64,000 bases of DNA, taken from Claveliimonas monacensis. GTDB lineage: Bacteria > Bacillota > Clostridia > Lachnospirales > Lachnospiraceae. A model generated the notes under the pieces. It had not been told where the DNA came from. It saw only the letters and a list, made by a program, of their open reading frames with translations, and did not search any database. Shown here in pieces: positions 33,475 to 51,618 of the stretch (the first letter of the stretch is position 1; each line of letters opens with the position of its first letter). The stretch covers positions 1-64,000 of the forward strand of contig NZ_JADCKL010000014.1 in NCBI RefSeq assembly GCF_014982975.1, in the 5' to 3' direction. The position numbers and the translations under genes are program-made.

Positions 33475-34350
33475 ATGCATAAATATTTAAGGTCAATTGG
33501 TTATGGCTGTATTAAGTCAAGGACAGAGCTGAATAAATTTCTGAAGACAATAGAGAACGATTATACATGCCATGAACTGGTCTCTCTGGACGAGGAGGCA
33601 GACTTCTGTGAATATCAGAAGGAATGCGGGGCAGGCATAGGAGTTGCCGTGTGCGGGGATATGGATATGCGCGAGACATTTTACAGACAATACTACTATC
33701 CATATTTTATCGGAAGCGGCATCTCCTCCTACGCTGACATTATTGTCGAAAAAAGGATGGACCGGGAAGCCTACGTAGGCATATGCGAGGATGTGAAGGT
33801 GGGCGTCAGCCTGATCTTCCATCTGCAGAATACAGTGGAATATATAAAAGAAAAACAGCTCTCCGGTGACAGGCTGAAATTCGGCTCTGTGACCCTGGCG
33901 GGGCTGTGCAATTCCGGAACAGTCCTTCTTCCTGTTATGAAAAGCAAAGAGACAGAGCAGAGAAGAAGGGAGGAATCCCGGAACAGGATGATGCTCCTCA
34001 GTGCGGCCAGAAACGGAGATCAGGCTGCCATGGAGAGCCTGACACTGGATGACATTGATATTTATTCAAAAGTTTCAAAACGCCTTGTGACAGAGGATGT
34101 ATTCAGTATTGTGGATACGTATTTCATGCCGTACGGGGTGGAGTGCGACAGATATTCGATCCTGGGAGAGATCCTGCATGTACATACTATCCAGAACCAG
34201 GAGACGGGAGAAGAGCTCTACGTCATGAAGCTGGATGTGAATGAGCTGGAGTTTGATGTCTGTGTGCCGGTAAAGGGCGTGTTCGGAGAGCCGGCCCAGG
34301 GACGCAGATTTAAGGCAAATATGTGGCTGCAGGGCAGAATTAATTTCTGA
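33475..34350 (+). CDS. DUF3881 family protein
   Basis: 291 residues, soluble, beginning MHKYLRSIGYGCIKSRTEL, the usual opening of DUF3881. No catalytic motif is recognised. It follows serS by 10 bp and is likely co-transcribed. The family is restricted largely to Lachnospiraceae-like Clostridia, which supports the taxonomic call. Function unknown. Confidence 0.85.
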   Translation: MHKYLRSIGYGCIKSRTELNKFLKTIENDYTCHELVSLDEEADFCEYQKECGAGIGVAVCGDMDMRETFYRQYYYPYFIGSGISSYADIIVEKRMDREAYVGICEDVKVGVSLIFHLQNTVEYIKEKQLSGDRLKFGSVTLAGLCNSGTVLLPVMKSKETEQRRREESRNRMMLLSAARNGDQAAMESLTLDDIDIYSKVSKRLVTEDVFSIVDTYFMPYGVECDRYSILGEILHVHTIQNQETGEELYVMKLDVNELEFDVCVPVKGVFGEPAQGRRFKANMWLQGRINF

Positions 34351-34360
34351 TACTGAAAAA

Positions 34361-34398
34361 ATGGCAGGGACAGCTTTGGAAAAGCTGCTTCCTGCCAT
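34361..34398 (-). terminator. Stem-loop after DUF3881
   Basis: Outer stem ATGGCAGG/CCTGCCAT with an inner stem CAGCTTT/AAAGCTG. The T run (TTTTTT) lies on the minus-strand side, so it terminates minus-direction transcripts better than the plus-strand operon. Confidence 0.5.
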
Positions 34399-34471
34399 GA
34401 AAATAAAAATAACAGTTGATTTTGAACTTACAAGATGATAAAATAATTAAGTACGAAATAAATATATTTAT

Positions 34472-34510
34472 GTTCCCTTAGTAAAATGGATATTACGGAT
34501 CCCTCCTAAG
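34472..34510 (+). pseudogene. tRNA-Arg(CCT), 5' half, interrupted by the mobile element (attL)
   Basis: 39 nt: acceptor GTTCCCT, D arm GTAA-AATGGATA-TTAC, anticodon stem GATCC and loop CTCCTAA plus G. The sequence then changes abruptly. The missing remainder is found at 52883-52924. Joining the halves at the shared CCTCCTAAG gives a perfect 72-nt tRNA. Confidence 0.9.
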
Positions 34511-34513
34511 TGT

Positions 34514-34742
34514 TTGCTAAGCGAACACCTGAGGAAACAGGACAGAAGCAGAAAAAGGATCAAATCGGATCCGGTACGGAAACCATTTGAACGGAGCGGA
34601 GACAAGAAAAAGGTGTTTGCTCAAGTGTCAAAGGGATCAAAAAAATTGTTGGTTATCAGCATTGAAAAAGGCTGTTACCATAGAATCGGCTATCTGACCG
34701 AGAGGCTGAAAACCCAGTGTTTAAGCCAAAAAATCAGAGAAT
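34514..34742 (+). other. Left-end segment with doubtful coding fragment
   Basis: A stem-loop GTGTTTGC-TAA-GCGAACAC (34510-34528) touches the core site. An open frame starting at TTG 34514 runs into the tRNA gene and includes KLLVISIEKGCYHRI, faintly like plasmid pRiA4b ORF-3 type proteins. It lacks a ribosome binding site and a good start. I treat it as non-coding or a remnant. Confidence 0.25.
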
Positions 34743-34814
34743 GTCTCGTTAGTTAAATGGATATAACAGGGTCCTCCTAAGACTCAATTATAGGTTCGAT
34801 TCCTATACGAGACG
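34743..34814 (+). tRNA. Element-borne tRNA-Arg(CCT)
   Basis: A complete 72-nt tRNA: acceptor GTCTCGT/ACGAGAC with discriminator G, D arm with A20 (AATGGATA loop), anticodon stem GGGTC/GACTC, loop CTCCTAA (anticodon CCT, decodes AGG), T arm ATAGG-TTCGATT-CCTAT. Its stems differ from those of the interrupted host gene, so it is a different gene and not a duplicate. It lies 232 bp downstream of the broken 5' half in the same orientation and may be transcribed from the host promoter. Confidence 0.93.
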
Positions 34815-34818
34815 GTAG

Positions 34819-34866
34819 ATATAAGCGGGAATTATTAGCTGGAAAGGCTTTAATAATTACCCGCTT
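34819..34866 (+). terminator. Stem-loop after element tRNA-Arg
   Basis: Imperfect inverted repeat ATAAGCGGG-AATTATTA / TAATAATTACCCGCTTAT. It could be a terminator or processing hairpin for the tRNA; the following T tract is weak. It overlaps the first arm-type repeat. Confidence 0.45.
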
Positions 34867-35000
34867 ATCTCATTTTCTGAAGAAGAAAATTACCCTGAAT
34901 GGGATGAAAATCCAGCTAATACACTGTCAAAAATTAGCGGATCTGGCTAATAAAAAAGCTTTGTGGCTAATAATTTTTTTCCAGGCAGATCAGCTAATAA
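34832..35000. repeat. Integrase arm-type repeats, left end
   Basis: Six copies of the motif (C/T)(A/G)GCTAATAA or close variants: reverse at 34832-34842 and 34932-34940, forward at 34912-34921, 34944-34953, 34964-34973 and 34991-35000. Two more occur at the right end (52723-52752). Clustering at both ends of an integrase-bearing element suggests integrase or excisionase arm sites. The gap 34815-35204 holds no gene. Confidence 0.65.
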
Positions 35001-35133
35001 CAGTGCTCAGTTAAATGTCAGCCTGTATTTAAAATAGTAAAACATGGTAAAAGCGTGGTATGCGGACTGCACATTTTTCAGAGGTTCATCTGGAAGCCGA
35101 TACAATATCAATTACATATAATAGTCAAACGGG

Positions 35134-35183
35134 AAGCTCGTTTGGATCAGATTTACAAAACTGATCTGAACGAGCTTTTTTCG
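35134..35183 (+). terminator. Strong rho-independent terminator
   Basis: Stem AAGCTCGTT..GATCAG / CTGATC..AACGAGCTT with a 10-nt loop, then TTTTT. It insulates the left end of the element from the cargo genes. Confidence 0.7.
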
Positions 35184-35204
35184 TATCAGAGGAAAGGAGA
35201 AAAA

Positions 35205-35276
35205 TTGGAAGAAAAAGAGAAAGTTATTGAAATTGAGATTGAGAGGCTTCGAGACTTTAAAGAGCATTCAGTTTGA
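35205..35276 (+). pseudogene. N-terminal fragment of an element-type ParB-like protein
   Basis: TTG start 7 bp after GGAAAGGAG, encoding 23 residues (VIEIEIERLRDFKEH is the usual opening of ParB-like proteins on conjugative elements). It then stops at a TGA where the sequence switches to an unrelated frame. Probably a deletion junction near 35266. Confidence 0.45.
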
Positions 35277-35589
35277 TGAGAAGAATCCCTACGCCGTTGC
35301 CGATCAGGGAAACCGCAAGGTGGAGTATGCCTCGAAGAAGGACATTATGGACGGCATCGTGAAGAAATACCGTCTTGACCTGTTAGCGCCGCCCGAACCT
35401 GCAGACGAAGGCAATGCATCCGGCGGTCAGGATCAGGCGAAGGACGAAAGCAGCCAACCACAGACGAAAAAACAGCAGACAAGGGATAAGAAGAAAACAG
35501 GCGGATCAAATCTGCAGACTTCCCCAAGAGCTCGCAGGACTCCGCCTCAAGAACCAAAGCCGGAGGTGAGTGCCAATGGGCAGACTTGA
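35267..35589 (+). pseudogene. C-terminal fragment of an unidentified element protein
   Basis: An open frame without its own start, beginning around FDEKNPYAVADQGNRKVEY and ending in a Gln/Lys/Pro-rich tail. It looks like the C-terminus of a larger conjugative-element protein fused by deletion to the ParB-like stub. Its 3' end carries the ribosome binding site of the next gene and overlaps it by 14 bp, which suggests the original operon order is preserved. No family is recognised. Confidence 0.4.
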
Positions 35590-35830
35590 TAAGCTATACA
35601 AAACCGATGTGCCGCATCGGGCAAAGCTCGTGTATATCTATCTCCATGACCGCATGGATAAGGAGCGAAAGGCGTGGCCGGGGCTAAACACTATCGCCTC
35701 CCACCTCTCACTCTCCCGTTCCACTGTTAAACGAGCCGTCAAGGATTTAGAGAAAGCCGGACTGATACGAAAGGAGCCGCACTGCCGTGAAAACGGCAGT
35801 GCGACCTCCAATCGATACTATCTGCTGTGA
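35576..35830 (+). CDS. Helix-turn-helix protein of conjugative-element type
   Basis: 84 residues from ATG 35576, with GGAGGTGA 8 bp upstream. It begins MGRLDKLYKTDVPHRAKLVY and contains a winged HTH (WPGLNTIASHLSLSRSTVKRAVKDLEKAGLI). Small proteins of this kind recur in integrative conjugative elements of gut Firmicutes and resemble the DNA-binding part of plasmid replication initiators. Role unknown; transcriptional or replication control is likely. Confidence 0.7.
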   Translation: MGRLDKLYKTDVPHRAKLVYIYLHDRMDKERKAWPGLNTIASHLSLSRSTVKRAVKDLEKAGLIRKEPHCRENGSATSNRYYLL

Positions 35831-36006
35831 GCCGAAAAAAACAAATCTCGTCCGCCAAGGGAGAACTATGCCTAAACAGTGGACTGAGGGGCGGTTCATT
35901 TTGACCCGCCTTGAAGTACCCACTTTAAGAGAGAATACAGCAGAAAGAGAAAACACAGACTATTTGCTGTTACTCCTCTGTTAATGTTTTTCTCATAAAA
36001 TATTTT

Positions 36007-36053
36007 GACAAGTCAAATTAAAGCTCGACTTATCAAATTGTTTCTGCTATAAT
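36007..36053 (+). promoter_or_regulatory. Promoter with paired operator repeats before the XRE gene
   Basis: -10 TATAAT (36048-36053) and -35 TCGACT with an 18-bp spacer. Two 13-bp direct repeats, GACAAGTCAAATT (36007) and GACTTATCAAATT (36027), start 20 bp apart; the second covers the -35 box. The rest of 35831-36082 shows nothing else. Confidence 0.5.
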
Positions 36054-36082
36054 AAATATATTCTGTTTATGAGGTGAACAAA

Positions 36083-36289
36083 ATGGCGGTTCAGTACAAT
36101 AAGCTTTGGAAGCTGCTGATAGATAAAAAGATAAAGCCTTCTGCTTTGTCGAAAATGACAGGGATTGCCCCCTCTATTATGGCGAAGCTGGACAGGGATG
36201 AATATGTGGCTCTTTCCGTACTGGAACGGATCTGCCTGACTCTGGATTGCGACATCGGCGATGTGGTTGAGATCGTAAAAGAACCCTAG
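36083..36289 (+). CDS. XRE-family regulator (YozG-like)
   Basis: 68 residues from ATG 36083, 5 bp after GAGGTGA. One HTH_XRE domain: LWKLLIDKKIKPSALSKMTG, then VLERICLTLDCDIGDVVEIV. It likely autoregulates through the paired repeats at 36007-36039. It is 17 bp before the membrane LuxR-type gene and probably controls that operon. Confidence 0.85.
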   Translation: MAVQYNKLWKLLIDKKIKPSALSKMTGIAPSIMAKLDRDEYVALSVLERICLTLDCDIGDVVEIVKEP

Positions 36290-36306
36290 GACGGGGGTGA
36301 AAACAT

Positions 36307-37722
36307 ATGAAACATCATTTTGTTTTTAACAAGCCGGCGATTCACTTTATCCTTTTGGTCGGCATTTTCACTTTTGTCTTTTTAGGTGCGGAATATCTGT
36401 TTGTCAATATGATCTCCCTGTCGGTGACGGAAGGGAAAACCGTCATTGCCCAGAACTATGCGCTGGGCGCCAGCGCCGTCGGCTTTTTCCTGTATCCGGC
36501 CATGGAACGCTGGGTTGGAAGGCGCTATAAAAGCGGACTGACCTTTATCCTGGCGCTGGGTGCGATTATCTGTACCTTCATTGTTCAGCAGCATATCTCC
36601 TATGAGGTGACTATGGCAGCCGGGATGGTGCTGTTTCTGCTGCTGGGCGTTTTCGGCAGCGCCGTCCACTATCTGGCTTCCGTCACCATAGATGGCGACA
36701 ATGCATTGGCACGGCTGGCGGGGATCGCCTACGCTCTGGGAATTCTGCTCCAGTATGCAAACAACAACCTTGTCAACCTGGAGGTTGCGGAGGCGGCGTT
36801 TCTTTCGGTATTCCTGGCGGCTCTGAGCCTGCTGGTCATCCGAACGAGACAGGCCGGCCAAAGCCGCATCGAAATGACGGAGACTGCGGCTTTGGCCTCA
36901 AAATCAGAAACAGACATTTCCCTCACCCGGAAAAAACGGACGGCGGGCATTATGCTGGCGCTGCTGGTAGTGCTGATGGCATGTGTGTTCAGCACACTGG
37001 ACAACGCCGTGACCCTCCGCCATGCGGGCGGGACGGATATCGGGCAGTGGCCCCGCCTGTTGCTGGCGCTCAGCGGCCTCGCCGCAGGCTTTGTCTTCGA
37101 TATCCGAAAGCGGAAGTATATGGGGCTTATCATGTACTGCGTGATGATGATGTCGGTTCTGTCCATTGTGGTACTGAACCTGGGCGCTCCGTTCCTGATT
37201 GGACTGGTGGTCTTTTACCTGTCCTCGGGTTTTTTCGTTGTCTTTTTCACAGCGGGCTTTATGGAGCTTTCCCGGCATATGCGCCTGCCGTCGCTGTGGG
37301 CGGGCATGGGCCGCGCCATGAATAACGTGAGCGCCGCCCTGATCGCCAGCGGATCGGTGGCGCTGCTGTCCACCGGCAACAGCCTGGCCGCCATTGTCAT
37401 CGCCCTGGTGCTGTTCGTGGCGGTCAGCGTTGTTATGGCTGTGTATACCGCCCGCATGAACGCCGTCAAAGAACCCAAGGAGCCGCCTGCTTCCCAAAAG
37501 TCGGACGAAGAGCGAAGGGAGGCGTTCATCGCAAAATACGGGCTGACCGAACGGGAATGGGATGTGTTCTCCAAGATGATTTCCTCGGACAGCAGCGCCC
37601 AGGAGATAGCCGACTGCCTGTTCCTGTCCAAGCGGACGGTGGAACGGCATATCTCCGCCCTGTACGAAAAGACAGGCACAAAATCCCGCATCACTATGTA
37701 CCTGCTTTACCGCAACGATTAA
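36307..37722 (+). CDS. Membrane LuxR-type regulator with transporter-like N-terminus
   Basis: 471 residues. About twelve hydrophobic helices occupy residues 10-385, resembling a major-facilitator fold. A cytoplasmic linker leads to a C-terminal LuxR/GerE HTH (LTEREWDVFSKMISSDSSAQEIADCLFLSKRTVERHISALYEKTG in parts, about residues 410-465). This architecture is common in Eggerthellaceae-type actinobacteria and rare in Lachnospiraceae. Codon use is GC-rich compared with the chromosome, supporting transfer. It may sense a transported or membrane-bound ligand; the neighbouring surface-protein genes are possible targets. Ligand and targets are not shown. Confidence 0.75.
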   Translation: MKHHFVFNKPAIHFILLVGIFTFVFLGAEYLFVNMISLSVTEGKTVIAQNYALGASAVGFFLYPAMERWVGRRYKSGLTFILALGAIICTFIVQQHISYEVTMAAGMVLFLLLGVFGSAVHYLASVTIDGDNALARLAGIAYALGILLQYANNNLVNLEVAEAAFLSVFLAALSLLVIRTRQAGQSRIEMTETAALASKSETDISLTRKKRTAGIMLALLVVLMACVFSTLDNAVTLRHAGGTDIGQWPRLLLALSGLAAGFVFDIRKRKYMGLIMYCVMMMSVLSIVVLNLGAPFLIGLVVFYLSSGFFVVFFTAGFMELSRHMRLPSLWAGMGRAMNNVSAALIASGSVALLSTGNSLAAIVIALVLFVAVSVVMAVYTARMNAVKEPKEPPASQKSDEERREAFIAKYGLTEREWDVFSKMISSDSSAQEIADCLFLSKRTVERHISALYEKTGTKSRITMYLLYRND

Positions 37723-37733
37723 CATACTGGCTG

Positions 37734-37770
37734 ACACCCTGCTTTCTCTCCGGAGAGGCAGGGTGTTTTT
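37734..37770 (+). terminator. Terminator after the LuxR-type gene
   Basis: Stem ACACCCTGC/GCAGGGTGT with a 15-nt loop, then TTTTT. A second stem-loop, GTGGCGG-TTCA-CCGCCAC then CTGTTTT, lies at 37963-37987. Apart from these the gap 37723-38108 shows no supported gene. Confidence 0.75.
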
Positions 37771-38108
37771 GTGTGCGGTAACGAATTGTCCTGATGAAAA
37801 ATATCGTTTTCCCCATCTGAAAAATGAAATTTACGCCATTCGGCATCCGCGAAAGGAAAAATCAGGAAAGAAAAGCACACCTCATCCCCTACTTGGAACG
37901 ATTAGAAGTTATGCATATATAAAGCCTCAAAATAGTTGCTTTGATTTATATAATATGCACAAGTGGCGGTTCACCGCCACCTGTTTTGATACGATTGGCG
38001 GGGTTTACGCATAGACAATCCGGCCTCTTTTCACCTAAAATGAGGACTTAGGAATCTACTTCTTCCCGGCGTCCGCCACGATTCCCCAAAAATTCAGGAG
38101 GAAAAGAA

Positions 38109-38378
38109 ATGATGGAATACGTTCAAAGAGAACTTCCCTATGTGCGCTCCTATGTCCTGCGCTCGGTGTATGGTATGCTGCGGCAGGAAGGGATTGCTTT
38201 TGGGGAGGAAGCGCCGGGAAAGATTATTGCCGAATGCAGAGCAGACGGAACAGACGTCTCCCTTTCCATAACGGCGGAGGAAAAAGCGTTTGGAACTGAA
38301 CTGACGATTTCACTGCGCCGCCCCTGCGATGGAATGCCAAAGCAAAATGATACTGCTTTTCGGAATCTTGCCGTGTGA
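38109..38378 (+). CDS. Small hypothetical protein, paralogue A
   Basis: 89 residues after AGGAGG. Not recognised. It opens with YVQRELPYVRSYVLRSVYGML, an amphipathic helix shared with the next gene (RQVKRLLPYVRRYVQMAVYDVL), followed by a beta-type segment VSLSITAEEKAFGTELTISLR. The frame continues after the TGA at 38376 for 19 more residues (MGRHCGDVQEKFSALYGD) to a TAA at 38436, which suggests a nonsense mutation has shortened it. It is in the GC-rich cargo. Confidence 0.6.
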   Translation: MMEYVQRELPYVRSYVLRSVYGMLRQEGIAFGEEAPGKIIAECRADGTDVSLSITAEEKAFGTELTISLRRPCDGMPKQNDTAFRNLAV

Positions 38379-38458
38379 CTGATGGGTCGGCACTGCGGTG
38401 ATGTGCAGGAGAAGTTCTCCGCTCTGTATGGCGATTAAAACGAAAGGAGAGAAACGGA

Positions 38459-38803
38459 ATGCGTCAGGTGAAAAGGCTCCTTCCCTATGTCCGGCGGTAT
38501 GTGCAGATGGCCGTTTACGATGTGCTGGACGCGGAGGGGGCGGAATACTGGAAGAATGAAAGCGGCGCGGTGGTCGCCCGGCTTTCGGTTTACGGGAACG
38601 TCAGCACCTTCAGCCTTTCGGCGGAGATATGCGACACGGGAACCGGACTGACGGTTTCCGTACGTGATCCCTGTCCCGGCCTGTCGGCCAAGGGAGAGGA
38701 ACGGGCGGTGACCGCCGTAGCCGATATGGTTGCCCAGTACCTTGAGAACGAGCTGATGATCAACCGCCGCTGTTTCGTGCCGGACCGGCATTATGCCGTA
38801 TAG
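38459..38803 (+). CDS. Small hypothetical protein, paralogue B
   Basis: 114 residues after AAAGGAGAG. A tandem paralogue of the upstream gene: the same N-terminal helix and a VSTFSLSAEICDTGTGLTVSVRDPC segment, plus an intact C-terminal helix (AVADMVAQYLENEL) that paralogue A lacks. No membrane helix or catalytic motif. Function unknown. Its end overlaps the next small frame by 11 bp. Confidence 0.65.
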   Translation: MRQVKRLLPYVRRYVQMAVYDVLDAEGAEYWKNESGAVVARLSVYGNVSTFSLSAEICDTGTGLTVSVRDPCPGLSAKGEERAVTAVADMVAQYLENELMINRRCFVPDRHYAV

Positions 38804-38978
38804 GGAACCGCGGCCGGCCCCAAGCGTGAAATTCTGTCCGAAATGCAGGGCGCCGCTCTCCCGCAGAGCGCTCCAGTGCGATAAAGGGCAAAACGCCGTC
38901 TATATCGTTCTGCTGGTCTCCTGCGGCGTACTGGGAATACTGGGCTGCAGGCGGAAAAAGGTGGTGGTCGAGGAATAA
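38793..38978 (+). CDS. Small zinc-ribbon-like membrane protein
   Basis: 61 residues. One CPKC knuckle near residue 15, a later lone Cys (QCDKG), and a hydrophobic helix (AVYIVLLVSCGVLGILG) followed by KKVVVEE. The start has no clear ribosome binding site and depends on overlap with the preceding gene. Possibly real, function unknown. Confidence 0.4.
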   Translation: MPYREPRPAPSVKFCPKCRAPLSRRALQCDKGQNAVYIVLLVSCGVLGILGCRRKKVVVEE

Positions 38979-39067
38979 GGCTGAGAGATAAAACAAAACC
39001 GGCAAAAGCGCCTGCAGGCGGGGCTTCATGCAAAACCTGTCCCGGGCAGCCGGCAGGAAAAATTTTT

Positions 39068-39109
39068 AGAAGGGGCGCCCCTTCTATCCTTTGCTTACAC
39101 CAAAGGATA
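39068..39109. repeat. Two adjacent hairpins upstream of surface protein 1
   Basis: Perfect palindrome AGAAGGGGCGCCCCTTCT (39068-39085), then ATCCTTTG-n-CAAAGGAT (39086-39109). They may form a leader structure or a terminator of the small-gene cluster; no T run is present. Confidence 0.5.
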
Positions 39110-39140
39110 AACAATCTTATTTGACAAGGAGGAAACAATC

Positions 39141-41168
39141 ATGAAGCGAAAATTACTTGCAGGTTTGCTGACGCTTTGCATGGCGGCGGGAATGGCCGTA
39201 CCGGCAGCCGCAGCCACTACGCCTGCTGAACAGGAGCCGGGCGCTGACGGCCCGAAATACACACACGTAGACCACGTTTTGAATGAGGATACGCCTAGTA
39301 CCAACATGGATATACTGGTTATGCCCGGCGAGAGTTTCACCGCACAGCCCAACGTGGACATTCACAAGGGCAATTGCGCGTGTATCACGGCGGACTATCA
39401 GTATTGGAAGTATGTAACTACGGTTCAATTCATGAATGCAGACCTGTATTTGGGATATGTTAATATTCCTAATTACAGTGCTCATGAACCGAGGTATGTA
39501 AGTGATGGCTATTTAACAACCAGCACGCCGGATTTGTCAAAGCTGGAACCCATAACAAAATATTATGACAATGCGATAAAGATTGCCTATGAAAACAAGT
39601 TATTAGAGATCGACCCATCAGCCTATGGGGAAGAAGAATATAGTAATTTACAGTCCGCTTTGGAAGCGGCATGCGAACTTCCGGGGCATACTTTCAATGC
39701 AGGATATGTTAACAATACTGGTTTACCCATGCTTTTAACAGCTTGTTATGCCGGCGGTAAAAAACTCGATGGCGAGGAAGTGGGCACAGAAGGCTGCGGA
39801 CACGTCGGTCATGGGGCTGTACGATCGATGTATGGCGGAGGTTTCTCTGAGTTCTATGTTACCTTTTATGAGCCTTATTACAATATAAACTATGAAGGCG
39901 TGGAAAACTATTTTACCGAGGAAGAATTGGCGGATTTGCCTGACCGCTATTATATCCAGCGGGAAGAGCAGCAGATTGTTCTGCCAAATCCTGTTCGGCC
40001 CGGCTATCATTTTAAAAACTGGAGAGAATCAGGGTATGATATAATTATTGGTTATGGTGAAACAATAACGGTAAAAGACGGTAAAACCTTTATAACCTTT
40101 GATTTTGAAAACGGTTTAAAAAACGGGGCAGGGGACAAAAACTTGGCGCCAATCTTTACAAGAGGCTGTACGGTTACTTTCAATCCCAACGGCGGAGCAT
40201 TGAAGGACGGGGAAAAAGCTATCCGTGAAATTGACGAGACAGGCACAGAAGACAGCAAGTTCTTCGATGTCAGCACAGTAGCTCCTGTGCGTGAGGGTTA
40301 TACCTTTGCGGGCTGGTCTTTCTCGCCGTCTGGCGAACGTAACAGCATAATTGCAAACACCGCAAATTCTGACTGGTTTGCCGATTGGGAAAGCTATTAC
40401 CGCAGCTTACAATACGGTGAAAACCCCGCTTCCACCAGTATCTATGACATACAGCTTTATGCTGTGTGGGAGAAAAATGTTACCGAACTGACCAACTCCG
40501 ACACCAACGTTTCCATCTCCCTGACCGACGGTGTGCCGGAGGACGCGACCCTTTCCGCTGATACTATCGCGCAGGAAAGCGTACTGGAAAGCCGTCCGGA
40601 GCTGAAAGAGGAGCTGCCGGGCCTGCTGTCCATTTACGACATCAGCGTCCGCCAGAATGGGGAAACCCTTGAAATCAAGGACAATCCCATGACGGTGAAA
40701 ATCCCGCTGAACGACCACCTGAAAGGCTACAAATACTATCAGGCGGTGTATCTGGGCGACCCATTGGAACGCTTTGACGCGGTGGTGGAAGGAGACTTCC
40801 TCGTGTTTGAAACCGACCATTTGAGCCAGTACGCAATCCTTGGTTCTAACCCCACCGACCCAACTGACCCCACTACTCCAACAGATCCCACCGACCCCAC
40901 CGACCCAACTGACCCCACTACTCCAACAGATCCCACCGATCCGGCTGGGCCGACTGACCCGACCACCCCGACAGACCCCGCTGACCCGGCTGACCCAACC
41001 GACCCAGCCAAACCCGAACAGCAGGGCAAGCCTTCTGAGCAAACAGAAAGCCCACAGACCGGGGACAGCAGCGATATGGCGCTGTGGATCAGCCTGATGC
41101 TGGCCTCCTGCGGCGGATTGCTGGGGATGCTGTTCTACAAACGGAAAAAAACAGCGGCCGGGAAATAA
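39141..41168 (+). CDS. Cell-wall-anchored surface protein 1 (SPQTG sortase signal, InlB-type repeats)
   Basis: 675 residues. Signal peptide MKRKLLAGLLTLCMAAGMAV with cleavage after AAA. The middle has Listeria-Bacteroides (Flg_new/InlB B) repeats, e.g. GCTVTFNPNGGALKDG to YTFAGWSF. A 114-residue module (about 457-570) is shared with surface protein 2, followed by a DPTDPTTPT spacer (about 571-624) and a sorting signal SPQTGDSS, hydrophobic helix and KRKK. SPQTG is a class B-type sortase motif known from Clostridioides. It is probably an adhesin-like protein; the ligand is unknown. Confidence 0.82.
   Translation: MKRKLLAGLLTLCMAAGMAVPAAAATTPAEQEPGADGPKYTHVDHVLNEDTPSTNMDILVMPGESFTAQPNVDIHKGNCACITADYQYWKYVTTVQFMNADLYLGYVNIPNYSAHEPRYVSDGYLTTSTPDLSKLEPITKYYDNAIKIAYENKLLEIDPSAYGEEEYSNLQSALEAACELPGHTFNAGYVNNTGLPMLLTACYAGGKKLDGEEVGTEGCGHVGHGAVRSMYGGGFSEFYVTFYEPYYNINYEGVENYFTEEELADLPDRYYIQREEQQIVLPNPVRPGYHFKNWRESGYDIIIGYGETITVKDGKTFITFDFENGLKNGAGDKNLAPIFTRGCTVTFNPNGGALKDGEKAIREIDETGTEDSKFFDVSTVAPVREGYTFAGWSFSPSGERNSIIANTANSDWFADWESYYRSLQYGENPASTSIYDIQLYAVWEKNVTELTNSDTNVSISLTDGVPEDATLSADTIAQESVLESRPELKEELPGLLSIYDISVRQNGETLEIKDNPMTVKIPLNDHLKGYKYYQAVYLGDPLERFDAVVEGDFLVFETDHLSQYAILGSNPTDPTDPTTPTDPTDPTDPTDPTTPTDPTDPAGPTDPTTPTDPADPADPTDPAKPEQQGKPSEQTESPQTGDSSDMALWISLMLASCGGLLGMLFYKRKKTAAGK
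40851..41011 (+). repeat. Tandem Asp-Pro-Thr coding repeat
   Basis: Imperfect DNA repeats encoding DPTDPTTPTDP units, including two 36-bp near-identical copies. They encode the wall-spanning spacer of surface protein 1; a shorter version is in surface protein 2 at 42970-43030. Copy number is likely to vary between strains. Confidence 0.8.
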
Positions 41169-41326
41169 GGCTTAAAGAAGGTTATTCGTTCCGCCCTGGC
41201 TGCCTGAACCGGCGCGCCGGGGAACGGATGGCATAGAACACAGAGAAAAAGGCGGTGACACACCAAAAAGAATGATCAAACCTGTATATTCACATAAAAG
41301 TTATCTTGAAAGGAGAAAAATCAATC

Positions 41327-43186
41327 ATGAAACTAAAGCGCAAACTTCTTGCAGGACTGCTGACGCTTTGTATGGCTGTTGGAATGGCTGTGCCGGCGTT
41401 TGCGGAGAACGGCCCCTCGTCCGGGGACATGAGCGCCGCATGGGTGCAGCTGTATGATAGCAGTGTAGAAGAACCCGATGGCTATGTACTTTATAGCAAC
41501 GGCGGCGAGGCTGACACGGTGGAGGGCGCTGTCTATGACAAGGCTACCAACACCATCACCCTGACAAACTACAACCACCCGGAAATGACCCTTGCCACCA
41601 ACGAGATGGGCGACGATTTGAAGCTTCATCTGGTGGGTGACAATCATATCGCCGAACTGATTGTATGGGGCTTCGGCTGGGGCGGCAATCTGGAAATTAC
41701 CGGAGACGGCTCCCTGACCATCAATGAAAACAAAACGTCTCAGACTGCGGCGATCCGCTTTATGGCCGAGGGAACACAGGGTCTGCTCAAGGTCGGCTCA
41801 AACGCTTCTGTGACAGCGTATAAGAGCGCAGGTGAAAACACTTATTCTGCGGCCTTTGTATCGACAACATCCTCAACCCTTCCCTTCACAGGTAATCTGG
41901 AAACAGAGCTTGCCCTGACCGCCAATTCCGGCATCGAGGGGGAGACCACCGAATGGGAAAATGTCATATATGAAAGTAATTATGTTGCTCAAGACTGGAA
42001 GGTTCTCACCAAGGGCGAGGACGGAAAGAAATACGGCGTTAGTTACGGAACAATCTACACCGGCAGCGATTTAACAAACGGCAAGCCTGTGGGCTATATC
42101 CACGAGCTGGTGAAGGTGGAAGGACTTCCTAGCCAAAAAGAATATCTTGCCGTTCAAATTGCTACCGTTGACGGACTTGAAAAGGACGCTCTGCCTGAGG
42201 GATATACCGACTCAGGGGAAACCATCAGCGCCAAAATAGGCGATATCAGCTCTATGACAGTGCTGATCAAGGACGGGCAGAGATTTTATTGGGGAGCAGA
42301 CCCGAATCAATCCCAGTGGTTGGTCTATCAGACCGCCGTTGATGACGTAACTGCGGAGGATTGGGGTCAGACAATCCTGACAAAAATTGTAGTGCCTGTG
42401 GCTGGAGAAGGCGTCAGCGGTGCGACCGAAGAAGATATTCCGGCAGGCTATACCACCAACGTGGTAAAGACCGGCATGTATAGCTACTACTGCACCAATG
42501 ATGTGATCAAAGTATCCCCGTCCGGGACTTCTACCGATCCGGGCACTGATCCTGGAACAAAACCTGGTGAGGATACTGGCGTCAAAGATCTGACTGCTTC
42601 CGAAACCGGCGTTTCCATCTCCCTGACCGACGGCGTGCCAGAGGGAGCAGAGCTTTATGCCGACACCATTGCACAGGAAAGCGTGCTGGGAAGCCGTCCG
42701 GAACTGAAAGAGGAACTGCCGGGCCTGCTGTCCATTTACGACATCAGCGTTAGAAAAGACGGTAAAGCTCTGGAAATCAAGGACAACCCCATGACGGTCA
42801 AAATCCCGATGAACGACCACCTGAAGGGCTACAAATACTACCAGGCGGTATATCTGGGTGACCCGCTGGAACGCTTTGATGCAGTGGTGGAAGGTGACTT
42901 CCTGGTGTTTGAGACTACCCATCTGAGCCAGTATGCTATCCTTGGCTCCAACACACCGTTTGAAACCAGCGAAAAGCCCACCGACCCCACTACTCCTACA
43001 GACCCTACAGACCCGACTGACCCAGCCAAGCCCGAACAGCCTGACAAGCCTTCTGAGAAAACAGAAAGCCCCCAGACCGGAGACAGCAGCAATATGATGC
43101 TGTGGATTGGTCTAATGTTGGCCTCCTGCGGCGGTGTTATAGGTATGGCGGTTTACAGCAAAAGAAAAAAACTGCATGCTAAATAA
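41327..43186 (+). CDS. Cell-wall-anchored surface protein 2 (SPQTG sortase signal)
   Basis: 619 residues from ATG 41327 behind AAAGGAG. The signal peptide (KRKLLAGLLTLCMAVGMAV) and the C-terminal third (module, DPTDP spacer, SPQTGDSS signal) are nearly identical to protein 1. The N-terminal 420 residues are different: a beta-rich domain with YDKATNTITLTNYNH and GDGSLTINENKTSQTAAI, like carbohydrate-binding or beta-helix modules seen in gut Firmicutes. It is transcribed with or just after protein 1 and precedes a truncated sortase gene. Confidence 0.82.
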   Translation: MKLKRKLLAGLLTLCMAVGMAVPAFAENGPSSGDMSAAWVQLYDSSVEEPDGYVLYSNGGEADTVEGAVYDKATNTITLTNYNHPEMTLATNEMGDDLKLHLVGDNHIAELIVWGFGWGGNLEITGDGSLTINENKTSQTAAIRFMAEGTQGLLKVGSNASVTAYKSAGENTYSAAFVSTTSSTLPFTGNLETELALTANSGIEGETTEWENVIYESNYVAQDWKVLTKGEDGKKYGVSYGTIYTGSDLTNGKPVGYIHELVKVEGLPSQKEYLAVQIATVDGLEKDALPEGYTDSGETISAKIGDISSMTVLIKDGQRFYWGADPNQSQWLVYQTAVDDVTAEDWGQTILTKIVVPVAGEGVSGATEEDIPAGYTTNVVKTGMYSYYCTNDVIKVSPSGTSTDPGTDPGTKPGEDTGVKDLTASETGVSISLTDGVPEGAELYADTIAQESVLGSRPELKEELPGLLSIYDISVRKDGKALEIKDNPMTVKIPMNDHLKGYKYYQAVYLGDPLERFDAVVEGDFLVFETTHLSQYAILGSNTPFETSEKPTDPTTPTDPTDPTDPAKPEQPDKPSEKTESPQTGDSSNMMLWIGLMLASCGGVIGMAVYSKRKKLHAK

Positions 43187-43227
43187 CAGATGATTGAGAT
43201 TTCATCTCATTGACAACATCAGTTACA

Positions 43228-43265
43228 GGCGGTGACGGCTTAAAAACCGCCACCGTCTTTTTTGT
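43228..43265 (+). terminator. Terminator after surface protein 2
   Basis: GC-rich stem GGCGGTGACGGC / GCCACCGTC with a 2-nt bulge, then TTTTTTT. Confidence 0.7.
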
Positions 43266-43293
43266 GCTAATTTAAGCGATGGAACTATTAACA

Positions 43294-43730
43294 ATGAAAA
43301 AAATTATAATTGTGGCGGTATGCCTGATAATTGCGGCTTTATCTATTTATAAAATTTCAGGGTATTTGCTGGAAATGCTGGAAAGCCAAAATTTGAACGA
43401 TTCACTTACGAAGGAAGCAGTAATGAAACTTCCACAGGACGCTGAAAGCAACCAGTCGGAACAAGAATCTGTACAGGAAACTGCGCCGATCATAGTAGAT
43501 TTTGAGGTTTTACAGACAGAAAACAAGGACATCATCGCATGGCTGCACTGCCCCGATACCAAGATAAACTATCCGGTGGCGCAGAGCGAGGATAACAGCT
43601 ACTACCTTCGTCGCCTGCTGGACGGCTCTTGGAACACGGCAGGGACCATTTTTATGGACTACCGCAACAGCGCAGATTTTTCAGACCGGCATACTGTGAT
43701 TTACGGACATAATATGAAGAATGATACAAC
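43294..43730 (+). pseudogene. Class B-type sortase, truncated
   Basis: About 145 sortase residues: an N-terminal membrane anchor (KKIIIVAVCLIIAALSIY), then IIAWLHCPDTKINYPVAQ, TIFMDYRN and the catalytic-His region VIYGHNMKND. The sequence then enters the antisense of a transposon gene near 43730, so the catalytic Cys (TLSTC-type) and Arg are lost. It lies just after two proteins with SPQTG signals, its expected substrates. The first ATG at 43279 lacks a ribosome binding site; 43294 is used here but is also weak. Confidence 0.8.
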
Positions 43731-43994
43731 GATTTCGTTGTCCATCGCCATATCGAGAATGTTCTTTCGGGGATCAGTCATTCCGACCTGCTGTTCAAGT
43801 GCCTTGTCCAGTGTGCTTCGTACAATGGGGTTCTTGTAAAAAAATCCTCTCGACAATCCTGTCTTAGCAATCAGCTTCGGAATCGTTATTTTCTCTCCCT
43901 CATCCAGCATTTTAAAGATTGTCTTTTTAGCAAGTTCAATCTTGTCCGCACTGCTCTTTCGGTTACAGGCGACCATCTTTTCGTATTTGCTCAT
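43730..43994 (-). pseudogene. Tn554-type TnpC-like (DUF6262) gene, truncated
   Basis: From ATG 43994 behind GGGAGG: MSKYEKMVACNRKSSADKIELAKKTI, then ITIPKLIAKTGLSRGFFYKN, the N-terminal part of DUF6262 accessory transposition proteins. The 3' part is replaced by the sortase fragment. Its start overlaps the end of a tnpB-like remnant, as in Tn554-family transposons. Confidence 0.65.
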
Positions 43995-44086
43995 ATTCAT
44001 CCTCCCATCCGTCTAAGTTGTTTAATATTATCGCCGAGAGCTTCTGCCGTGCCTTTCGGGTTTCATCGGCAAGTAGTTGATTGCTC
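43963..44086 (-). pseudogene. C-terminal remnant of a Tn554-type TnpB recombinase
   Basis: About 40 codons, SNQLLADETRKARQKLSAIIL to a TAA at 43963-43965, overlapping the DUF6262 start. The upstream part of the recombinase is missing. The overlap with TnpC is typical of the family; identification of so short a piece is tentative. Confidence 0.45.
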
Positions 44087-44167
44087 ATCTTGCGATATAC
44101 CAAGTTGTTTCTGTGTAAGATGATTTTTCTTTCTTAAATGCTTTAGTTTTTCTCCGAATGTAATCAT
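44063..44167 (-). pseudogene. N-terminal fragment of an XRE regulator
   Basis: 34 codons from ATG 44167: MITFGEKLKHLRKKNHLTQKQ, then LGISQDEQ before the frame hits TGA in the TnpB remnant. It is the start of an HTH_XRE gene cut by the transposon. Confidence 0.5.
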
Positions 44168-44245
44168 AGTGATGTTTTCCCTTTGTCTACTGATTTTAAT
44201 GATCTGGGTGCCGGTAATAAGCCGGCACCTGTTATAAATCTTTTT

Positions 44246-44659
44246 CTATTCTCCTGTACTTCCAAAAGCATGGGTTCCCCGCTTGTTACCGAGATTAAAT
44301 ACAAAGTCTGCAATGATCACGGGTGTGATGACAAGCTGCCCGATCCGCATGTCCTTTGAGATTGACTGTCTGAAATTACTGATATTGCTGATGATCGCAT
44401 GGATCTCTCCGCGATATCCGGAGTCTATAGGAGGCAGCTCACAGACCAGTCCTTTTACTGCCATGCTGCTTCTCGGAAATACAAAGCCGGCATATCCGTC
44501 AGGAAGTTCCAAACCAAATCCAAGAGGCACTTTTATAATCTCCCCGGGTTTTAAAGTACAGTCAAAGGGAATATATACATCTGCACCTGCATCATTTGCG
44601 TGCAGCCTGAGGGGAGAATGTTCCGGAACCAATCCGAAGTCAATCAGCTTTATTTTCAT
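44246..44659 (-). CDS. dut: dUTP diphosphatase
   Basis: 137 residues with all five motifs of trimeric dUTPase: AGADVY (I), PRSSMAVKG (II), IDSGYRGEIHA (III, catalytic Asp), RIGQLVITP (IV), and RGTHAFGSTG (V, where the usual Gly pair is TH). It hydrolyses dUTP to dUMP and pyrophosphate. Its start overlaps the ThyX stop by 4 bp, last in the mobC-relaxase-thyX-dut run. Being on the element, it is presumably an extra copy. Confidence 0.9.
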   Translation of the reverse strand: MKIKLIDFGLVPEHSPLRLHANDAGADVYIPFDCTLKPGEIIKVPLGFGLELPDGYAGFVFPRSSMAVKGLVCELPPIDSGYRGEIHAIISNISNFRQSISKDMRIGQLVITPVIIADFVFNLGNKRGTHAFGSTGE

Positions 44660-45423
44660 TCTGTTTCACCTCCGGTCAGATATGGATAATCCTGATGAAG
44701 GATCTCATGAGGAAGGAGAAGTCTGCTGATCGGATGACCGCAGGACATTTTTCCTTCCAGGCATTTATCCCGCTGACAGTATGGACCTGTCAGAGCCGGG
44801 GCAAACAGAGGATTGCTGTATTCATAAAGCTCCTTCCAGACACGGAGCATGACAATCCGCGTTTCGTCTGTGTTTCTTCTGCATGAGCGCTGACCGATCA
44901 TGTGCTTCCACTGATAAGGTGTGGCGCTGATGATCAGGATATTTCTTAATCCCTGAGGCGTGGCATAGCCTGCGGCGTCGTGCCCGATCCCTGCTCTGCA
45001 CAGCCGGCCATAGCAGTCGAGGTCTGACCGGCAGCTGTCTTCATAAAGCATCTGTATCTCTGGGGAAGCTGTCAGTATTTCATAAGGAACTGCAAATTCT
45101 GCTTCGCCGGAATAATTGCTGTACTGCAGGGAGGCACTCATAAATTTTACTTCATTCTGATGCCGGGTGATCTGTGAGAGAAATCTCCGGCTGGCGCCGA
45201 CCACAGCGACAGTAATGACAGTAAATTTCTGGATTGCAGGATGAGGAAGCTGACCGAGAGTTTTAACAGTTTCGTCCAAAAAGGATTTTTCGTACAGCTT
45301 CACTAAATCATCCATCGAATGGATCATATGTCCCCGCTGTGTAAGCCTTGCTGCAAAGACCATGTTTTTTTCCGCTTCCCTGACAGCGGAGCAGTTCAGG
45401 ATTTTAGTTTCAATTTTGTTCAT
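44656..45423 (-). CDS. thyX: FAD-dependent thymidylate synthase (ThyX family, divergent)
   Basis: 255 residues. The ThyX motif region reads RRFLSQITRHQNEVKFMSAS: the canonical RHR is RHQ and the Ser spacing is off by one. A conserved LRNILIISATPYQWKHMIGQRSCRRNTDETR segment (in parts) matches the FAD/dUMP-binding C-terminal helix. Known role: reductive methylation of dUMP to dTMP. Overlaps with both neighbours suggest translational coupling. Activity of the altered active site is uncertain. Confidence 0.72.
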   Translation of the reverse strand: MNKIETKILNCSAVREAEKNMVFAARLTQRGHMIHSMDDLVKLYEKSFLDETVKTLGQLPHPAIQKFTVITVAVVGASRRFLSQITRHQNEVKFMSASLQYSNYSGEAEFAVPYEILTASPEIQMLYEDSCRSDLDCYGRLCRAGIGHDAAGYATPQGLRNILIISATPYQWKHMIGQRSCRRNTDETRIVMLRVWKELYEYSNPLFAPALTGPYCQRDKCLEGKMSCGHPISRLLLPHEILHQDYPYLTGGETE

Positions 45424-45736
45424 AGGGTGCCTCCTCTCTGATAATTGCTGCTAATAAGAAAAGATAATTCAGGCTGTCGGTAATCTTTTCTTCCCACATT
45501 TCTTTTTTAAATGATTCGTTTTTGGCATAACACATATCATACAGAGATACGATATGTTTTGCCATCATTCCCACCAGAGCGCGCTGGGGCGTGCAGCCCT
45601 GTAAGGAGGCGGCAATTTTAAATGCGGAGAGCCTGTCCAGGTTATCGCCGGTATACTCTTTTCTTTTGTTATTTAAAGTGGTCTCACATTTCATTACCTG
45701 ATTGGCAAAGATCAGCTTAAATTCTGATTGTGTCAT
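45410..45736 (-). CDS. Small element protein, possibly nucleotide-metabolism related
   Basis: 108 residues, all helical: KRKEYTGDNLDRLSAFKIAAS, a central KHIVSLYDMC and a final WEEKITDSLNYLFLLAAII. This pattern is like phage proteins of the DUF1599 or MazG-like type, which accompany nucleotide-modifying genes. It overlaps the relaxase stop by 4 bp and thyX by 14 bp. The resemblance is weak, so the role is only suggested by its neighbours. Confidence 0.55.
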   Translation of the reverse strand: MTQSEFKLIFANQVMKCETTLNNKRKEYTGDNLDRLSAFKIAASLQGCTPQRALVGMMAKHIVSLYDMCYAKNESFKKEMWEEKITDSLNYLFLLAAIIREEAPYEQN

Positions 45737-47388
45737 AATGCTTCTTCTTTCCTTTCTTTCTGTGATTTTTGATGTTCTGTTGTTCTTGGATGAATTATTT
45801 CTGTTTCCATAGCCTGGCGCCTGAGGATAGCGTCCACGTTGGCAGAAACGGTTTCTAATTCTTTACAATGGTTCTTATAGTTATGAATAACTGTTTTCTG
45901 GCTGTCGATGGTTTCCTGCAGTTTCTGCTTCCTCTTTTTTAGTGATTTCAGTGAAAGCATTTTCCCGTCAGGATAGAAATCTTTCAGCCAGTCCCGGGCT
46001 TCTTCATAAGCCGTGATCTCAGATACATGCTCGTTTCTGAAATTCTTCTTGTTTCCGGATTTTAAAAATTCTGCATAGATGCTTTTGGAAGCGAAGTATT
46101 GTCCGGTGTAGTGGATCTGCGAGTTGAGCACTTTCATTTTTTCAGTGAGCTCCCGCTTTTTGTCGTAAGCCTCTGTCAGCCTTTCCTGCGCCTTCGAAGT
46201 GACTGCACTCAGATCTTTTCTGGTATTGTAGCCATGCTCCTGTATGTAGATCAGGGTGTTTGCCATTTGCTGGAGATTGGTGATCTTTACTCTCTGCGCA
46301 TATGCTTCGCTTTGCATAGCTTTTACATTTGTCTGCAGATCAACTACCAGACGAAGCTGTGTGCGATAATAGAAGATTGCAAGCGGATCTCTCCGATAAT
46401 CAGTTTCCGGAGAATGATATGCTGTTGCTTTTTTCTCTGCACGTATCCCTTTTACATTCCGGGAGAAAAGTTCTTCCAGATGATCCCGTCCATAGTCCGT
46501 ACCCAGAGCTTTTTCAGTGATACGCTGGCTGCGGTCCGGATGAAGATAGCGGTACCTGCCTCTCTGTGAGATCACCGAGATATTGTAATTCTCCAAAAGA
46601 AGGGATTGGAATTCTTCAAAATTTTTTGCTTCCCGGGAGCAATCTTTTATTGCCTTCCGCAGGAAATCTTTTTGCGTCTGGAATGTCGTTGCAGATGGCT
46701 TGAGCCCCTCAGCAGTAATCTTTTTATTGATCTTTTCCATCTTTTCCTGACCGCGTGACTTCGCACGGAACTCAGCCTCCGTTACTTTTTCGGGAGCGGG
46801 CGAGAGCAGATCGATCTGATGTAACCCTTCCCGTTCACACATAGCCATGACCTCTTTTTTGAAGTGTTCCATAAATTTGTTCGTAGATCTGTGCTTTCCT
46901 CCCGCTTTATAGTCACTTGCCTGAGTCATATAATCTTCTTTTTCCGTTTCGTTTGCTCTTACGCTGTTGATCACGATATGTGTATGTATGTTTCCGGAAT
47001 GATTTTCGCCGTCAGTATGTGTAACCACAAGAGCCTGATGTCCCGGAAACATTTTTTGAGCTACCTCTAAAGATAACTCCTGAGCCTTTTCCCCGGTAAG
47101 ACCGCAATCTGATGCATCCCTGGGATCGTAACTGATGATATAATGATGGCTTTTGATTTCGCCTGGCCGTCTGTTCTTATTGAATGTTCTATTAGTCCCG
47201 GAACAGTCAAGATCAAAAGTTTCAGGAGTACAGTTTAATCCATCTGCATAGAATTCTTCTCTGAGCATAGGCTGTCCATATTCGTTAAGGAGCAGTGTTT
47301 TTGTTTTTTCATCGTGCTGATAGAAGAGATAATTTATGGCATCTGTGTAGTTGGCATTTTTGCTTTTAATATGCTTTACGATTGCCAT
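45733..47388 (-). CDS. Relaxase / mobilization nuclease (MobA/VirD2-like)
   Basis: 551 residues. The N-terminal nuclease domain has the three-His motif HTDGENHSGNIHTHIVIN near residue 125 and an early Tyr-rich region (NYTDAINYLFYQ). The C-terminal half is a coiled, charged region. It would nick oriT and pilot the single strand during mobilization by a helper conjugation system. Its start overlaps mobC by 23 bp and its stop overlaps the next gene, in one coupled operon. Confidence 0.9.
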   Translation of the reverse strand: MAIVKHIKSKNANYTDAINYLFYQHDEKTKTLLLNEYGQPMLREEFYADGLNCTPETFDLDCSGTNRTFNKNRRPGEIKSHHYIISYDPRDASDCGLTGEKAQELSLEVAQKMFPGHQALVVTHTDGENHSGNIHTHIVINSVRANETEKEDYMTQASDYKAGGKHRSTNKFMEHFKKEVMAMCEREGLHQIDLLSPAPEKVTEAEFRAKSRGQEKMEKINKKITAEGLKPSATTFQTQKDFLRKAIKDCSREAKNFEEFQSLLLENYNISVISQRGRYRYLHPDRSQRITEKALGTDYGRDHLEELFSRNVKGIRAEKKATAYHSPETDYRRDPLAIFYYRTQLRLVVDLQTNVKAMQSEAYAQRVKITNLQQMANTLIYIQEHGYNTRKDLSAVTSKAQERLTEAYDKKRELTEKMKVLNSQIHYTGQYFASKSIYAEFLKSGNKKNFRNEHVSEITAYEEARDWLKDFYPDGKMLSLKSLKKRKQKLQETIDSQKTVIHNYKNHCKELETVSANVDAILRRQAMETEIIHPRTTEHQKSQKERKEEAL

Positions 47389-47752
47389 TCAGATCACCTG
47401 CCAATTTCAAAATTTCTTTTTTCAGAGAAAAAAGATCTGCCAGGCAGTGATGAATTTCTTCTTCCATCGCCATAGACCTTTCACCACCTGTATTAAAATA
47501 TTTTGCAATCTGATTGAGGTTAGAACCGATTTTCCCGTACTGCATCAGAAGTTCACGAATGTCGTCACTGTTGATTACAATCTGATATTTTGCTGTCATT
47601 TTTTTATTCAGAATGAGACCGCGGATATATTCAGAACGAGATAAGCGTACTCCGTCAGCATGTTGATCGAGAATTGAAAGTTCGATATCGGTAAGTTTTA
47701 CACACACAATATTTTTTCGTTTTTCGCTTTCTTTTTTTTCTCTGGGTGCCAT
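47366..47752 (-). CDS. mobC: MobC-like relaxosome accessory protein
   Basis: 128 residues, ATG behind AAGGAGG. A ribbon-helix-helix start (NIVCVKLTDIELSILDQHAD, RLSRSEYIRGLIL) and the MobC-type YGKIGSNLNQIAKYFN segment. It binds oriT DNA and helps the relaxase nick. First gene of the minus-strand mobilization operon, facing the oriT candidate. Confidence 0.9.
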   Translation of the reverse strand: MAPREKKESEKRKNIVCVKLTDIELSILDQHADGVRLSRSEYIRGLILNKKMTAKYQIVINSDDIRELLMQYGKIGSNLNQIAKYFNTGGERSMAMEEEIHHCLADLFSLKKEILKLAGDLNGNRKAY

Positions 47753-47891
47753 TCTTCCTCCTTCCTTCTAAAGTCACAGGCTTCCGCAAAACTGAACCTC
47801 CACTACATCTGGCTGTCCCTTCCAGATATAGTGATGCGTACAACTTATGTTGGAAGCCAATTTGAATTTCATAGCAACTATCAATGAGAAG

Positions 47892-47990
47892 TCACAGGAG
47901 TTGCTGTGAAATTTCCGAGGGTATGGGGGTGCTGGATGTCCGGTGGACATCCGCTTAGCACGGACCGGAGCGGAGCGTAGACCGGAATCC
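47892..47990. other. Candidate origin of transfer (oriT)
   Basis: Upstream of mobC. Inverted repeats TCACAG-n6-CTGTGA (47892-47909) and GGATGTCC-GGT-GGACATCC (47934-47952), then a GC-rich stretch with repeated GGACCGG/GACCGG. Location and structure suit a relaxase target; the nick site is not identified. The whole gap 47753-48316 has no gene. Confidence 0.5.
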
Positions 47991-51600: not shown

Positions 51601-51618
51601 GGAAGCTGTAGTCGGAAT

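Follow-up and report, generated by a model that had tools for sequence, protein, structure and literature searches.

The window, i.e. the whole 64,000-nucleotide stretch of Claveliimonas monacensis DNA that was analysed, contains a host tRNA-Arg(CCT) gene that is split in two. An orphan 5' half (attL) is located on the forward strand at 34472-34510 and ends with the core CCTCCTAAG (34502-34510), and the matching 3' half (attR) is located on the same strand at 52883-52924 and opens with the same nine bases, CCTCCTAAG (52883-52891); the crossover point is the anticodon loop of the host gene, and the 9-bp core is common to both junctions. When the halves are rejoined, they give a 72-base tRNA that matches at 72/72 positions the unbroken tRNA of genome G010, a member of the same genus in which the site is empty, and on this basis the limits of the element were set at 34511-52891 (18.4 kb); the joined flanks match the empty site with 88.7% identity over 150 bases, gap-free. 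A DUF3881 gene (33475-34350; Pfam scan) is found upstream of the integration site.

The attachment site thus lies inside a host tRNA gene, and the core of 9 bp is too short to rebuild a tRNA. Neither junction of the window was called as tRNA by ARAGORN, with only the carried tRNA (below) being called near the junctions, and no T arm is seen by eye in the window sequence after the left core. Since neither junction rebuilds a tRNA, the host gene would stay broken during integration; precise excision of the element would restore it. Just inside the left end there is an inverted repeat, GTGTTTGC-TAA-GCGAACAC (34510-34528), with an extra GTGTTTGCT copy at 34612-34627; these are, by eye, possible candidates for arm-type sites of the integrase, and the inverted repeat is retained with one change in genome G338 (L161).

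A left-end spacer of 232 bp (34511-34742, forward strand; identical in G004) separates the broken 5' half from a complete tRNA-Arg(CCT) gene on the same strand (34743-34814; ARAGORN, 34742-34815; RF00005, 59.5 bits, E 2.6e-12). All acceptor, anticodon-stem and T-stem pairs of this carried tRNA are standard (G-T included), and it has 53 of 72 positions in common with the host tRNA-Arg(CCT); the stems differ between the one gene and the other in the acceptor (GTCTCGT and GTTCCCT), the anticodon stem (GGGTC and GATCC) and the T stem (ATAGG and GCAGG). ARAGORN, Rfam and the stem comparison hence confirm the original prediction of a second complete tRNA with the same anticodon and different stems at this position. 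The tRNA is directly followed by an inverted repeat (34821-34868, forward strand) that is a possible terminator by eye and is absent from the output of the scan that gave the promoter-like site (below). The only other tRNA called by ARAGORN in the window is a tRNA-Ser (335-424).

The genome assembly (3.0 Mb, 36 contigs, 99.79% complete) holds a total of 52 tRNA genes by the Rfam tRNA model, of which one, the copy of the element, has the anticodon CCT; the other arginine tRNAs are one each of TCT, ACG and CCG. Further chromosomal tRNA-Arg(CCT) genes would have spoken against the predicted replacement of the host tRNA, and none was found among these 52. A tRNA-Arg(TCT) might read AGG by wobble, and since one is present, the replacement tRNA may be useful and not vital. 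In the family, 290 of 397 genomes match a strict pattern for a complete tRNA-Arg(CCT), with two copies in four of them (G087, G142, G159 and G204; table read by eye); the 107 pattern-blank genomes are not to be counted as absences, because the strict pattern misses some variants. Genome G123 holds a 3' half, and G133 a 5' half, identical to that of the carried tRNA of the window; the flanks differ in the loci read, and neither was accepted as the donor.

On its forward strand, the element encodes an HTH protein (HTH_36; 35570-35830; profile search) and, as cargo, a protein with a C-terminal LuxR-type HTH (36307-37722; PF00196 above cut-off, MFS_1 below cut-off), a surface-type protein with a List_Bact_rpt domain (39141-41168; Pfam), and another surface-type protein (41306-43186; NCBIfam sortase-dependent surface protein match below cut-off, no Pfam match). 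Outside its HTH, the LuxR-type protein resembles a membrane transporter by eye. Genes for a dUTPase (44246-44659; Pfam), a ThyX-type thymidylate synthase (44656-45423; profile search), a MobA/VirD2-type relaxase (45733-47388; PF03432, E 2.6e-16) and a NikA/MobC-type mobilization accessory protein (47366-47752; profile search) follow on the reverse strand, and genes for an excisionase-like HTH protein (48257-48499; TIGR01764 above cut-off), a tyrosine integrase whose N-terminal part is an HTH domain (48572-50413; PF00589, PF14659 and PF12728 above cut-off) and a YhcG-type PDDEXK nuclease (50482-51600; profile search) on the forward strand. The R, H and Y columns, which we take to be the catalytic residues, are invariant across 17 aligned integrases (own included).

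The Pfam scan took in 17 element ORFs, a subset of all, and among these no phage structural families and no T4SS families were matched. By gene content and junctions the element is therefore classified as a predicted integrative mobilizable element, i.e. on an integrase, an excisionase-like protein, a relaxase with its NikA/MobC-type partner, defined junctions and no complete transfer apparatus; it is not placed among the temperate phages, given the relaxase and MobC-type protein in place of any phage structural match in the 17 ORFs. The sister element in G003 encodes, between its two junctions, a T4SS coupling protein, a TraG ATPase, a topoisomerase and ParB proteins (ten ORFs scanned), and this region has the look of an ICE. 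The same region also encodes an EF-G-family protein of 639 aa (L056:10470-12386), presumably the size of the ribosome-protection tetracycline resistance proteins.

Relatives of the integrase (E up to 1e-80) are present in 42 of the 397 family genomes, own included; the relatives in G003 and G007 came from a genus search. Left ends were located with patterns for both tRNA halves, 5' halves being counted among the matches listed, which gave 48 loci; one of them (L095) was left out as it is a tRNA-Arg(TCT). At least one orphan 5' half is present in 41 of the remaining 47 loci, and all 41 close with exactly one complete tRNA-Arg(CCT); the number of orphan 5' halves per locus is one in 26, two in 11 and three in four of these loci. 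At L105, the contig stops 12 bases past the core of its 5' half, and five left-end loci have a complete tRNA only, three of which are the uninserted genomes G001, G002 and G010; no 5' half was seen at L170 and L171. Four loci were added, three with the same layout and one with a complete tRNA only. In total, wherever an orphan half was found and the sequence behind it could be read (44 of 44 loci), exactly one complete tRNA-Arg(CCT) is present, always in the last position; sister elements that lack the tRNA and are equally common, which would have weakened the original prediction, were thus not seen among these loci.

The layout was seen in 41 of the 44 genomes with a near integrase relative, and in the other three (G311, G312 and G316) no orphan 5' half was found beside a complete tRNA. 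Measured from core to core, the distance from the last half to the complete tRNA is 92-282 bp, and that between any successive cores 82-326 bp. Halves and integrases were counted separately and not joined into one element per genome, and some stacked 5' halves have no matching 3' half among the halves listed.

Outside G004, the left end closest to that of the window is in G338 (78% identity over 829 aligned columns). Its carried tRNA is found at a like position, 272 bp from core to core vs 271 bp in the window, yet is quite different in sequence; an integrase encoded on another contig of G338 is 85% identical over residues 142-611. The position and the anticodon of the carried tRNA are conserved, and its sequence is not. 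Of the initial 4.7 kb of the element, G004 (L053, G004:C59) has stretches of 609 and about 3,530 bp, with 100% and 97.7% identity, whereas the host flanks are 82.5-84.8% identical to those of the window, which points to a recent transfer of the element between species; a 3' half matching the 5' half of G004 was not among the halves listed for this fragmented assembly.

An integrase relative (47.5% identical) is encoded on OY725843.1 (L252-L254), a 75.8-kb circular Subdoligranulum record from the plasmid collection. This record also carries an orphan tRNA-Arg(CCT) 5' half, with a complete tRNA at a distance of 102 bp (37297-37399); a 3' half was looked for in it and not found. As a candidate free form of an element it does not offer a clean attP, since a free circle should lack the 5' half, and it may be a plasmid that has taken up an insertion, or else an unusual circular form.

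A promoter-like site, TTGATT-17-TAAAAT (34416-34444, forward strand; sigma70-like scan), is located upstream of the split host tRNA. The suggestion that the carried tRNA may be driven by the captured host promoter fits the sequence: the only sigma70-like site in 34300-35000 is that of the host, but one site is no more than shuffles give (average 2.0) and alone is not significant, so the weight rests on the comparison across loci. G003 and G004 share the hexamers and the spacing of this site, and G010 has one base changed. In the 120 bp that precede the first half or tRNA, 38 of 47 loci have a site scoring at least 9/12, compared with 9.25 in shuffles. Promoter-like sites are also found inside the spacers, namely in 8 of 38 spacers under 90 bp (2.94 in shuffles) and in 9 of 22 longer ones (4.84 in shuffles), whereas none of the 14 of 60 spacers that are under 60 bp attains the 9/12 score. 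Read-through from a captured promoter is likely at many loci; some elements seem to own a promoter, and since some spacers hold promoter-like sites of their own, promoter capture would not be the sole route.

Right ends were examined in 80 named loci, which were the best among 577 given by a genome scan and hence not a random draw. Among the 69 of these with at least 1 kb downstream, 53 have a tRNA-Arg(CCT) 3' half at the right end, with L188 (core TTCCTAAAG, at a distance of 8 kb), L198 and possibly L215 (the stem ahead of the core looks intact) being doubtful, and 16 have no 3' half; a complete tRNA-Arg(CCT) is found within 2.6 kb in five of the latter (L186, L217, L237, L239 and L244). The targets vary at both ends. 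One left-end type (AGAAAGCCGAG...) is found behind five different 5' halves, each time followed by the same tRNA or its 5' half, and for one integrase subtype a near-identical right end (CTCGGGGGCTT or CTTGGGGGCTT before the core) is joined to eight different 3' halves in nine loci. Identity at the crossover is 9 bp in the window and down to 7-8 bp in relatives; in L097, L111 and L119 a left junction departs from the core at its eighth base, which may leave no more than the seven bases of the anticodon loop in common.

Elements also insert into the replacement tRNAs of other elements. Past the right junctions of L072, L180 and L201, the sequence matches the DNA that follows the tRNA in the G003 element for 945, 328 and 351 bp, respectively, with 96.6-98.9% identity, and the elements at these loci accordingly sit in a G003-type replacement tRNA. 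Stacks of two or three halves are present in 15 of 41 loci, and such insertion would account for the stacking; the stacked halves are, as read from these junctions, its image at the left end. Deletions and rearrangements have probably occurred too, because not all halves pair up per genome. L114 (G350:C1 near 2507000) has two copies of one left end at a spacing of 217 bp, and the second copy follows a 5' half of the element's own tRNA. Divergence of the stems as a general guard against self-integration was considered and discarded, being contradicted by this locus and by entry into many stem types.

The complete tRNAs differ widely and are structurally sound on paper: across 28 distinct ones, three of which come only from loci without an orphan half, 194 of 196 acceptor pairs, 140 of 140 anticodon-stem pairs and 138 of 140 T-stem pairs are kept if G-T is accepted as a pair, and a single stem position can show as many as six pair types. 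One of the 44 complete tRNAs, at 1708-1784 of locus L160 (G148:C1), is chimeric, with 5' and 3' halves of different types; it has 5/7 acceptor pairs with two mismatches, and alone among the tRNAs read it has more than one unpaired stem position. It looks like a product of recombination between two tRNA anticodon loops.

We consider it very probable that this integrative mobilizable element splits tRNA-Arg(CCT) at the anticodon loop and substitutes its own complete copy behind the host promoter. The tyrosine integrase would recombine at the anticodon loop of tRNA-Arg(CCT), needing little beyond the invariant loop. The carried tRNA has the orientation of the broken 5' half and lies close behind the left junction, so that transcription from the host tRNA promoter, which stays in place ahead of the broken half, could run into it. 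The mature carried tRNA would be released from the transcript by RNase P, and the complete carried tRNA would stand in for the broken host gene in the decoding of AGG, which is a common codon in the 28 flanking host ORFs (136 of 569 Arg codons). Because a whole carried tRNA removes the need to match the stems of the target, such elements could enter many tRNA-Arg(CCT) genes, those of other elements included.

The carried tRNA might instead be mainly a landing pad or decoy attB by which later arrivals are steered into the first element and away from the chromosome, with decoding secondary. The insertions of L072, L180 and L201 into an element tRNA and the stacks of halves agree with such a use; however, a short core site would suffice for it, and a tRNA that works is what one would expect from a whole cloverleaf being conserved and the host gene being lost. 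As the main role it is improbable, and the decoy and decoding roles are compatible and can coexist.

It is very improbable that the carried tRNA is a passenger or codon-supply gene like those of phages, in a spot beside the broken host gene that is incidental. Some phage tRNA-Arg genes do resemble it (14 phage records, with a match over 7-10% of the query), but the same anticodon at a similar position in 44 of 44 loci argues against a passenger, as does the fact that it is the only CCT tRNA found in the genome. Moreover, AGG is rarer in the element (23 of 170 Arg codons in 11 ORFs, 5.7 per 1000) than in the flanking host ORFs (136 of 569 Arg codons in 28 ORFs, 12.2 per 1000), which disfavours a supply of codons for the element's own genes.

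In the available text of PMC4383910 and PMC8371274, integration into a tRNA gene is described as normally restoring the gene from a fragment in attP. Hypothetical hybrids of a target 5' half and a carried 3' half have on average 9.1 of 12 pairs, with at least 11 of 12 in only 8 of 41 cases and with 8 of 12 in the window. A T-loop motif at a tRNA-like distance after the core is found in 12 of 60 spacers of other elements (0.02 in shuffles), L098, L109, L113, L115, L116, L118, L155, L156, L158, L165 and L169 included, and the same motif deeper in 10 of 60 spacers. That one junction regenerates a working tRNA and renders the extra tRNA redundant is thus the rule for islands in tRNA genes and would find some support in these motifs, but it is extremely improbable here, with hybrids mispaired at most loci and no working tRNA restored at a junction of the window. 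The motifs look as if an older, restoring 3' half of attP had decayed, and would fit one of the histories proposed in the available text of PMC10865867, in which a tRNA was gained and the long attP core then lost.

The substitution of the host tRNA by that of the element, as favoured above, resembles the tRNA-dependent lysogeny described by Guerrero-Bustamante and Hatfull (2024) for mycobacteriophages and Gordonia phages (Fionnbharth, LeBron, Gaia and others), in which, according to the available text, cores are 8-17 bp and the phage tRNA is required (PMC10865867). By the features that can be tested in sequence, the element of the window works alike, though the requirement for the tRNA has been demonstrated for the phages only. 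In contrast to these, it is a mobilizable element and not a phage, its host is outside the Actinobacteria, the tRNA is tRNA-Arg(CCT) and not Lys, Ile2 or Leu, and its relatives show stacked insertions. In Fionnbharth, the tRNA shares sequence with a phage gene and is preceded by a region of tested promoter activity, whereas here the tRNA is directly inside attL behind the host promoter. The discussion of PMC10865867 also reports that integration of the Lactobacillus johnsonii prophage Lj965 does not rebuild the tRNA and that a cognate tRNA is encoded; the element of the window is alike in both respects, and Lj965 is a prophage.

With the classical islands and prophages in tRNA genes (Islander, PMC4383910) the element shares the tyrosine integrase and the crossover site in the anticodon loop, but the attP tRNA fragment described in the available text on these restores the gene and that of the element does not; tools that pair a tRNA with a cognate fragment would probably mis-map such elements, since the attP fragment restores nothing here. 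The tycheposons of Prochlorococcus and Methylophilaceae (PMC10872708) are alike in cargo, tyrosine recombinase and a bordering tRNA; in the available text, their tRNA marks the border, and nothing is said of an element tRNA that takes the place of a broken host one. In publications that use the term tRNA-dependent lysogeny, titles and opening lines name no conjugative elements and no tRNA-Arg(CCT), for a survey mostly within openly accessible journals. Because the element works alike by its sequence features, yet is not phage-like and has an ICE-like sister in G003, we regard it as a variant of tRNA-dependent integration; new here are the non-phage elements, the position beside attL, the stacking, and the apparent turnover of a resident single-copy tRNA.

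This turnover was followed at the DUF3881 locus. A DUF3881 relative is present beside tRNA-Arg(CCT) in 34 of 47 left-end loci (about 1.5 kb flank), so the gene is usable as a marker of the integration locus. A protein tree was made for the 40 genomes that have the gene beside tRNA-Arg(CCT), L115 being left out with no tRNA within 700 bp. On this tree, the outermost resident tRNA switches 10 times between two distant types (13.7 in shuffles); at least seven of the switches are forced by well-supported branches, and three rows have long branches of unsure placement. Within the window's genus, the tree includes G001, G002 and four more genomes, and the resident type of the first two is not that of the four; the resident tRNA of G001 has only 43 of 75 positions in common with that of the host of the window. 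A search of about 23 kb downstream of the tRNA in G002 gave no trace of the integrase or of the pyridoxamine kinase gene (positive controls gave hits), and this tRNA may be ancestral or a remnant of an element. Replacement by the tRNAs of elements would explain the switches of the resident well; other transfer or gene conversion are also possible.

These observations lead us to propose a relay, for and against which the case seems evenly balanced. ICEs and IMEs of Lachnospiraceae and relatives would take turns at one captured promoter, each newcomer splitting the tRNA-Arg(CCT) of the previous occupant and supplying the next, and decayed elements would leave their tRNA behind as the resident. 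If this is true, the AGG-reading tRNA of the cell would always come from the last arrival, and the relay would account for the approximately 10 resident switches in 40 genomes, even within the window's genus.

The spread of the phenomenon outside actinobacteriophages is posed as a question in the discussion of PMC10865867, and the elements described here bear on it: tRNA-dependent integration, in the available literature known from actinobacteriophages and one reported Lactobacillus prophage, would extend to mobilizable and conjugative elements in many gut bacteria. A reason for carrying a whole tRNA is suggested as well, in that an integrase for which the invariant anticodon loop is enough could enter many tRNA-Arg(CCT) genes, across genera, provided that a tRNA comes with it. 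The implication would be that mobile elements can repeatedly replace a gene of translation.
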